Shown here: one piece after another, positions 11,332-36,385 of the stretch | Position numbering within the stretch: position 1 is the first letter of the stretch | Layout: each line of letters begins with the position of its first letter | The notes under the pieces: generated by a model | What the model was told of the DNA's origin: nothing | What the model saw: the letters and a program-made list of their open reading frames with translations, nothing else | The model's database searches: none | Made by a program: the position numbers and the translations under genes | Assembly: GCA_020148145.1 (NCBI GenBank) | Contig: JAHCRE010000013.1 | Coordinates: forward strand, 1 to 43,480 | Origin: Patescibacteria group bacterium | GTDB lineage: Bacteria > Patescibacteriota > Minisyncoccia > Minisyncoccales > JAHCRE01 | Length of the DNA stretch: 43,480 nt | Direction: 5' to 3'

Positions 11332-11343
11332 TGCCGTTAGTAG

Positions 11344-11368
11344 CCCCGAGAGTTTTTCTCGGGGTTTT
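11344..11368 (+). terminator. Terminator after tRNA-His (repeat unit copy 1)
   Basis: CCCCGAGA and TCTCGGGG form a perfect 8-bp stem followed by TTTT. The same hairpin and the 25 nt after it, up to and including a TATAAT, recur at 13027-13076. A variant is at 12315. Confidence 0.9.
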
Positions 11369-12302: not shown

Positions 12303-12314
12303 CCCGCCGCCCGC

Positions 12315-12340
12315 CCCCCGAGAGTTTTTCTCGGGGGTTT
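12315..12340 (+). terminator. Terminator (repeat unit variant)
   Basis: CCCCCGAGA and TCTCGGGGG form a 9-bp stem followed by TTT, a variant of the hairpin at 11344. Confidence 0.85.
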
Positions 12341-13014: not shown

Positions 13015-13026
13015 GGGGAGCCGTCA

Positions 13027-13051
13027 CCCCGAGAGTTTTTCTCGGGGTTTT
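13027..13051 (+). terminator. Terminator (repeat unit copy 2)
   Basis: It is the same CCCCGAGA/TCTCGGGG hairpin with TTTT as at 11344, and the match continues through the TATAAT of the next promoter. Confidence 0.9.
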
Positions 13052-21819: not shown

Positions 21820-21895
21820 TGGTGCGCACGGGTGGACTCGAACCACCGACCCCAGACTTATAAGGTCTGTGCTACTACCACTGAGCTACGTGCGC
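21820..21895 (-). tRNA. tRNA-Ile(TAT)
   Basis: The acceptor GCGCACG pairs with CGTGCGC, CAGAC/GTCTG encloses CTTATAA, and CCA is encoded. The anticodon TAT reads AUA directly, whereas most bacteria use a CAT anticodon modified to lysidine. It lies 3 nt after the ftsH stop. Confidence 0.9.
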
Positions 21896-24996: not shown

Positions 24997-25057
24997 GCCC
25001 TGTTAGAAAACTGAAGAGCATGATTTTTAGATTATCTAGTGATTTCTCTAACGGGGC
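24997..25057. repeat. Long-armed inverted repeat
   Basis: GCCCTGTTAGAAAA at the left and TTTCTCTAACGGGGC at the right can pair over about 13 bp around a 32-nt loop. It lies upstream of the S1-domain gene. Its role is unknown. Confidence 0.5.
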
Positions 25058-31806: not shown

Positions 31807-32517
31807 TTAAATTTTACAGACACTGGCCATTTTCTCTAGTTTTTTAAAACCTAAAGAAACAAATAGGGCTAGTCCAATTAAAATGATTATTGGTATTATT
31901 AATCTTAAATTTCCTTCTATTACTATTATAGAAAAATTATAAAGCCCATGCAAGATTATAGCTAGCCCTAAGCCTTGAGCAATTAATTTGCCCTGACTTT
32001 TTGTTTCAAAAAAAGACAGGGCAAGAAAATAACCTATCAGCCCTGAGGAAAGAGCATGTAAAAATGTGGCAGAAATAAAACGGAAAGAGGCTAAGACTAA
32101 AGTTTCCTCAAGGGGTAAAAAAAATATTTTCGGAGACAAAAAAATTAAGATATTTTCTAGGGCGGCAAAGCCCAAAGCTGAAATTATCATATAAAGCATA
32201 GCATCTAATGGTTCATCAAATTCTGGATTAGACACCACTTTTTCTTTAACTACTAAATATTTTAAAATTTCTTCTACTAAGGCAATTCCGATAAAGAAAT
32301 TTAAGACTTGAATCAAAATTGGGGAAAGATTCAATTTTAAAAATCCTTTTAAAATTACCATTTCAATAAAAACTGCTGGTATAGCCACTAACATCCCATA
32401 AAAGAAAATTTTTAAAATCATTCTCTTGGACTCAGGGTGAACATCTTTTCTTAAAAAAAATAAAAGCCAGATAATACTGGGTAAAAGACCAAAGATAAGA
32501 TAAAGAGGATAATTCAT
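31807..32517 (-). CDS. PrsW-like intramembrane metalloprotease
   Basis: The 236-aa protein has about seven membrane helices and the family motifs VEEILKYLVV (EExxK), FRFISATFLHALSSGLIGY and ILHGLYN, with histidines and glutamates that would bind zinc. PrsW in Bacillus starts the cleavage of an anti-sigma factor; the target here is unknown. Its start is 2 nt from the valS stop, so the two are co-transcribed with hsp20. Confidence 0.85.
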   Translation of the reverse strand: MNYPLYLIFGLLPSIIWLLFFLRKDVHPESKRMILKIFFYGMLVAIPAVFIEMVILKGFLKLNLSPILIQVLNFFIGIALVEEILKYLVVKEKVVSNPEFDEPLDAMLYMIISALGFAALENILIFLSPKIFFLPLEETLVLASFRFISATFLHALSSGLIGYFLALSFFETKSQGKLIAQGLGLAIILHGLYNFSIIVIEGNLRLIIPIIILIGLALFVSLGFKKLEKMASVCKI

Positions 32518-36149: not shown

Positions 36150-36174
36150 TTTGAGTTAAAATTTTAAAGGGAAT

Positions 36175-36205
36175 GGTGCCATCGTCTAGTGGCTAGGACA
36201 AGGGG
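36175..36205 (+). tRNA. 5' half of an interrupted tRNA
   Basis: GGTGCCA, TC, then the D arm GTCTAGTGGCTAGGAC, A26 and AGGGG (27-31) are in exact tRNA register. The acceptor and anticodon strands pair with the 3' half at 36327-36360. The D arm is of the Gln/Glu type. The decoded amino acid cannot be told because the loop is interrupted. Confidence 0.7.
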
Positions 36206-36234
36206 CTTTTTTAACCCTGCATCAATCTTTGACT

Positions 36235-36306
36235 GGCCTCGTCATCTAGTGGTTAGGATACGACTCCTTCAAAGTCGAAATACGGGTTCGACTCCCGTCG
36301 AGGCCA
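36235..36306 (+). tRNA. tRNA-Glu(TTC), nested inside the interrupted tRNA
   Basis: The acceptor GGCCTCG pairs with CGAGGCC, CGACT/AGTCG encloses CCTTCAA (TTC), and the T arm ACGGG/CCCGT is intact. CCA is not encoded. Confidence 0.95.
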
Positions 36307-36326
36307 TAAATTTGGTGCGGGGCAAG

Positions 36327-36360
36327 TCCCTAAACACGGGTTCGATTCCCGTTGGCGCCA
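36327..36360 (+). tRNA. 3' half of an interrupted tRNA
   Basis: TCCCT (39-43) pairs with AGGGG of the 5' half. A 4-nt variable region (AAAC), the T arm ACGGG/CCCGT and the acceptor TGGCGCC with A73 follow. TGGCGCC pairs fully with GGTGCCA at 36175, with one G-T pair. Confidence 0.7.
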
Positions 36361-36385
36361 TAGAGATTTTTCAGAGCTCAGCTCT

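Follow-up and report, generated by a model that had tools for sequence, protein, structure and literature searches.

The window analysed here, a stretch of 43,480 nucleotides from a Patescibacteria group bacterium, contains a tRNA gene whose anticodon loop is interrupted by DNA holding a second, complete tRNA gene. The question raised by this locus is whether the nest represents a tRNA lodged in the removable intron of another one, as a sequence-only reading had proposed, or a disrupted gene that acquired its replacement together with the disruption. The genome to which the window belongs measures 809 kb and is 96% complete; its closest relatives by the protein encoded downstream of the nest are Patescibacteria records, many of which bear the name Nealsonbacteria.

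Structure of the interrupted gene

The two halves of the outer gene had been read as lying in exact register, and every stem of the cloverleaf was confirmed from the acceptor to A73. The acceptor stem is formed by GGTGCCA (36175-36181) and TGGCGCC (36353-36359), with 7 of 7 pairs including one G.U, and the anticodon stem by AGGGG (36201-36205) and TCCCT (36327-36331), again with one G.U; the D arm lies at 36184-36199, the variable loop comprises 4 nt, the T arm occupies 36336-36352 and A73 stands at 36360. Both ARAGORN and Rfam detected the whole tRNA-Glu(TTC) noticed inside the anticodon-loop insert (36235-36306), which carries C33 in place of U33, as does the intact relative L099. With introns allowed, ARAGORN also returned the outer gene (36174-36361, intron of 112 nt), mislabelled as Ala. 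The suggestion that the outer gene was a Gln or Lys tRNA proved wrong, and both were ruled out, since its halves match the intact tRNA-Glu of relatives; comparison with 184 tRNAs likewise identified it as tRNA-Glu. Outer and inner tRNA of the window differ markedly from each other, the closest match of the inner one being a tRNA of another family.

In the joint fold the second cloverleaf is borne on the first (-74.7 kcal/mol, z = -4.2), and none of 200 shuffles folded as well. The anticodon stem is prolonged by one C-G and one U-A pair, followed by an asymmetric 6/1 internal loop and then by the helix of the insert. That the insert has a helix of its own next to the anticodon stem had been noticed correctly, and the version given for it (CCCTGC/GCGGGG) was too short: the two arms form 11 pairs, two of them G.U (Table 1).

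Table 1. Position of the parts of the nest and of two solitary palindromes in the window
Feature	Position	Strand	Comparison or source
5' part of the outer tRNA-Glu, from the acceptor through the D arm to the 5' strand of the anticodon stem	36175..36205	+	Homologous to the intact tRNA-Glu of relatives
Residual loop CTTT and left junction of the insert, TTTAA	36206..36214	+	Intact loop of G001, CTTTCAA
Inverted repeat, left arm CCCTGCATCAA	36215..36225	+	Solitary relatives elsewhere in the genome
Complete inner tRNA-Glu(TTC), loop CCTTCAA	36235..36306	+	Sole intact Glu-TTC gene found in the genome
Inverted repeat, right arm TTGGTGCGGGG	36312..36322	+	Comparison with solitary palindromes
Conserved CAAG at the right end of the palindromic element	36323..36326	+	Excess of GGG-CAAG in the genome; same end in the class scan
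3' part of the outer tRNA-Glu, from the 3' strand of the anticodon stem through the variable loop and T arm to the acceptor and A73	36327..36360	+	Sequence
Solitary palindrome with CAAG at either side	24998..25056	+	Hairpin scan of the genome
Solitary palindrome with GGG-CAAG end	31991..32021	+	Hairpin scan of the genome

A comparison with close relatives had been proposed. In relatives whose downstream protein is 79-80% identical, this position is occupied by one intact tRNA-Glu and no nest, and the nest is therefore probably the derived state at this locus. The nest of genome G101 occupies the same locus as that of the window, upstream of the same gene. Among relatives, then, some have only one tRNA here, but no insertion polymorphism was seen at the level of strains.

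Recurrence of the nests and their palindromes

Scans of the same GTDB class found the nest layout in about 30 or more genomes and in at least eight isotypes; Met, Val, Leu, Ala, Glu, Gly, Ile, Ser and Arg were nested, along with others. The first search pattern, two Glu D arms spaced too closely, gave three nests when run on 247 genomes of the order and five more elsewhere in the class. The second one joins GGGCAAG, with which the insert ends on the right, to a T arm; it is blind to both the isotype and the content of the insert and matched 43 of 383 genomes, as compared with 3 hits for a reversed control pattern; most of the matching loci that were read corresponded to nests and a few to ordinary tRNAs or chance. 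Nest counts are lower bounds for the patterns searched, and the parsed set is biased towards intact T arms. Since the arrangement recurs in many genomes it is not due to chance, and for the same reason an assembly error, possible at any single locus, is unlikely as a general cause.

Judging by body similarity, 19 of 25 outers share the isotype of their inner tRNA, the calls for the outers being based on residual loop bases and on this similarity. The exceptions were three Met nests, with an outer body unlike the inner one and both apparently CAT, and three Val or Ile outers with scores near those of their own isotype. In the Met(CAT) nests L455, L505 and L508 the bodies read GTAGTTCAACGG vs. 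GTAGCTCAG for outer and inner, respectively, and the two might be different CAT tRNAs. Triple nests were found at L466 and L490. Most outers kept 7 of 7 acceptor pairs and their cloverleaves are mostly intact; damaged ones occurred in G264, L476, L477 and L512, and the inner tRNA was retained where the outer one was lost or broken (G264, G611, and G594). At L614 (G594:C41), a complete tRNA-Glu is followed by a right arm and then by another 3' half whose T loop bears a hairpin, the outer 5' half being absent; this arrangement is possibly an intermediate or a relic.

Inserts usually followed one rule, by which a loop X-CA-Y becomes X-TTCA-CCC (left arm), inner tRNA, (right arm) GGG-CAAG-Y, so that the CA of the host loop is what the insert replaces. 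Host loops were split at this dinucleotide in Val (TTTA-CA-C), Glu (TTCT-CA-T), Met (CT-CA-TAA), Val-CAC (TT-CA-CAT), and Ala (TTCG-CA-T). The window and G574 presented the left-junction variant TTYAACCC, and Gly nests carried CAAG on both flanks; in G101 and G005 the palindrome stands in place of the anticodon arm itself, with the outer elbow retained.

The inverted repeat of the insert is a member of a dispersed palindrome family. Its arms match solitary palindromes elsewhere in the same genome, where hairpins ending in GGG-CAAG were observed 10 times (nest included) vs. 1.5 expected. One palindrome, GGTGCGGGG-CAAG at C16:118232, lies in frame within miaA/IPPT (HPAPEQVRCGAS) and another one, TTCACCCGCCC...GGGCGGGCAAG at C16:170885, in frame within a nucleotidyltransferase, NTP_transferase (SPAQILKKTWAGK). 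Both reading frames stay open across their palindromes, which on this basis would count as in-frame insertions in the sense used for RPE-like elements. Where a palindrome lacked a tRNA, its host was for the most part an outer or redundant gene and its site a D or T loop, as would be expected if live single-copy genes tolerate only inserts that bear a replacement. Another palindrome family, CCCCGAGAG-TTTTT-CTCGGGG, is frequent in the genome and occurs in the window at 11341-11366, 12314-12337, and 13025-13048.

No transposase was found, and Y1_Tnp was absent from the genome of the window, on which ground single-strand transposition by a Y1 transposase was rejected. A phage source was discarded because the phage search yielded one ordinary tRNA-Glu, and a plasmid source because the plasmid matches spanned a single tRNA only. 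The exact junction of the Val nest did not appear in viral contigs, and no clear nest was present among the loci checked from two broad viral scans; a viral source was thus rejected as well.

Decoding and the fate of the outer gene

In the genome of the window, Glu-CTC is encoded at another place, and for Glu-TTC no intact gene other than the inner tRNA was found. A second intact tRNA with the acceptor and D arm of the outer gene had been named, together with the lack of a spliced product, as the finding that would refute the intron reading; literally none was found, and the inner tRNA provides the same isoacceptor. One Glu isoacceptor comes from the inner tRNA and the other from another locus in G005, G264, G277, G485, and G574; in G101 the inner tRNA was the only Glu found, and in G472 the inner CTC was the only clear Glu gene. 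Three near-complete genomes (G400, G327, and G272) displayed an intact gene for nearly every isoacceptor when inner tRNAs were counted, mostly as single copies in G400 and G327 and with several duplicates in G272. For the nests checked in these three genomes the inner tRNA was the sole intact gene of its isoacceptor, and no isoacceptor was seen in them that was present only as a palindrome-interrupted gene. In G400, no Lys-TTT or Arg-CCG was recognised, and the only form of Thr-GGT has a predicted 212-nt intron of a different kind.

Some other tRNA genes deserve mention. A tRNA-Ile(TAT) lies at 21820-21895 of the window (minus strand); only two CAT tRNAs were found, so that a tRNA-Ile(CAT) of the usual lysidine type is apparently lacking. 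A gene resembling tRNA-Thr(GGT) lies at 172-228 of the window (minus strand), its acceptor stem and D arm separated by about 13 additional bases; an intact Thr-GGT is present on another contig. The tRNA-Asn(GTT) of the same genome contains a group I intron (C21:57332-57662; L328 17732-18062; RF00028, 88.7 bits), and tRNA-Asn would seem to be lacking if this interrupted gene were disregarded; it provides an example, from this very genome, of a genuine tRNA intron. RF00028 had no match in the window, so a group I intron in the nest was discarded.

The fold next to the anticodon stem had been likened to those recognised when tRNA introns are removed, a likeness that did not hold. The bulge-helix-bulge (BHB) motif, a 4-bp helix between two 3-nt bulges at the splice sites, does not occur cleanly in the predicted fold, and PF01974, corresponding to the tRNA-intron endonuclease EndA, had no match in the 96% complete genome, with four archaeal controls positive. 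Excision in the window would join CTTT and CAAG into a loop of 8 nt, one base too many; any single excision in the Val, Met, and Glu nests leaves 9 nt, with two extra bases, and an exactly normal loop resulted only in the Gly, Ser, and Arg cases. A BHB intron was ruled out by the missing EndA, the fold, and the loop length taken together.

One nest, at the same locus, is common to the related species G554 and G578, whose flanks are 73% identical over 1.8 kb. Between both species the outer halves (67/67), the inner tRNA (73/73), and both arms are identical, and the spacers differ; the chance of an unchanged outer gene under neutrality is 0.73^67, about 1e-9. Outer and inner tRNA are also near-identical to each other, the outer with T55 and the inner with C55 in both species, C55 being normal in that lineage; this shared difference disfavours gene conversion as the full cause of the identity. 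The comparison indicates that the outer gene and the arms are under constraint, at least in these two species, which would be compatible with a spliced or structural role of the outer gene.

We lean towards the explanation that a palindromic mobile element bearing a tRNA landed in the matching single-copy tRNA gene, so that the inner tRNA works and the outer gene is a non-decoding husk; we consider this somewhat probable. A hairpin element with a matching tRNA in its loop would have inserted into the anticodon loop of the single-copy tRNA-Glu(UUC) and inactivated it, an insertion that would survive only through the inner tRNA taking over. From the common transcript, RNase P and the 3'-processing enzymes would free the inner tRNA; the outer gene would remain, its decoding lost, and repeated events would generate double and triple nests. 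Such an element would be hard to lose, because breakage of the gene and its rescue are a single event. The dispersed palindromes with their GGG-CAAG excess and their two in-frame copies in protein genes, the recurrence across isotypes well above the control, the nearly complete sets of intact isoacceptor genes in G400, G327, and G272 with the inner tRNAs counted, the inner Glu that complements the other Glu gene in nested genomes where both were found, the placement of inserts without a tRNA mainly in outer or redundant genes, the damaged outers, the single intact tRNA-Glu of close relatives and the missing EndA all speak for this husk. Arguing against it are the outer gene of G554 and G578, since a dead husk should have changed, the complete acceptor stems of most outers, the unlike bodies in the three Met nests, the lack of a transposase, and the acquisition of a matching tRNA by the element, for which it does not account.

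Splicing is not our first choice, because EndA, a bulge-helix-bulge and, in most nests, a 7-nt loop are lacking, and because intron status would not explain a tRNA of the same isotype inside. As a true intron, the insert would be cut out of the outer pre-tRNA; after RNase P and 3' processing had released the inner tRNA, the arms would keep the outer halves together, similarly to split archaeal tRNAs, and a ligase would join them, giving two tRNAs per transcript. The constraint in G554 and G578, the mostly intact outer cloverleaves, the preference for the anticodon loop with constant junctions (X-TTCA-CCC / GGG-CAAG-Y), and the loops exactly restored in Gly, Ser, and Arg nests argue in its favour; we nevertheless regard it as unlikely in view of the two extra bases in Val, Met, and Glu nests, the anticodon arm made of element sequence in G101 and G005, and the three near-complete genomes, none of which was found to rest on a palindrome-interrupted gene for any isoacceptor. 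Cast as a new bacterial tRNA intron class, in which RNase P and 3' cleavage of the inner tRNA open the precursor, the palindromic arms hold the halves, and a ligase seals them to yield two tRNAs without EndA, the idea is doubtful, slightly more so than splicing as such. The nest put forward as a tRNA within the intron of another is real and recurrent, with a constrained outer gene in G554 and G578, and its splicing found no support in the genome. The joint conservation of outer gene and arms in these two species, as well as the elbow kept in G101 and G005 when the anticodon arm was replaced, would also fit an outer domain kept as structural, non-decoding RNA, its acceptor, T, and D arms forming a tRNA-like cap that stabilises the inner tRNA or aids its processing; such a cap is quite improbable, the inner tRNA being still there in G264, G611, and G594 with outers lost or broken, and the structure being absent from most relatives. 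We give equally little credit to neutral duplication, in which tRNA copies would fall into or beside each other by recombination between palindromes, with neither a mobile element nor a replacement role: the near-identity of outer and inner in G554 and G578 and the complete tRNA followed by a right arm and second 3' half in G594 agree with it, but not the precision with which junctions and inverted arms recur among unrelated isotypes, nor the markedly different pair of the window, whose inner tRNA is closest to that of another family.

Relation to known systems and meaning

No description of tRNA nests in bacteria, or of tRNA introns or nests in Patescibacteria, was found in the open-access literature. 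Archaeal BHB introns and split tRNAs resemble the nests in the interruption of the anticodon loop and in halves held by a helix, whereas the nests have no EndA, no clean BHB, and a whole tRNA in the insert. Group I introns share the anticodon-loop position, as in the tRNA-Asn of the same genome, but the nest insert is a hairpin plus a tRNA with no group I match. Integrative elements can regenerate a tRNA gene at their attachment site; like them, the nests combine insertion into a tRNA gene with restoration of a functional copy, and unlike them they contain a complete second tRNA inside the broken one, in an insert that encodes no integrase. Rickettsia palindromic elements are short palindromes scattered over a reduced genome, where they lie within RNA genes and, in frame, within protein genes; the nest palindromes resemble them in dispersal and in-frame insertion, a likeness by description and not by sequence, and the Rickettsia elements are not known to us to carry tRNA genes. 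In Lak megaphages, one tRNA-Thr(TGT) has an intron that may encode a tRNA (2019, PMC6784885). There, too, a tRNA is predicted within the intron of another, but it is a single case in a phage genome, reported as an intron, whereas the nests occur in bacterial chromosomes and many isotypes, with inverted-repeat flanks and with inner and outer mostly of one isotype.

The nests also bear on tRNA annotation, in that interrupted genes are overlooked or wrongly labelled in many Patescibacteria. If the outer genes were spliced, the nests would represent a processing-driven class of bacterial tRNA introns not seen before. If the outer gene is a husk, the nests would be self-entrenching elements, a single step being enough both to disrupt an essential single-copy gene and to provide its substitute; in this simple way a mobile repeat could make itself indispensable, and one tRNA allele could be exchanged for another.
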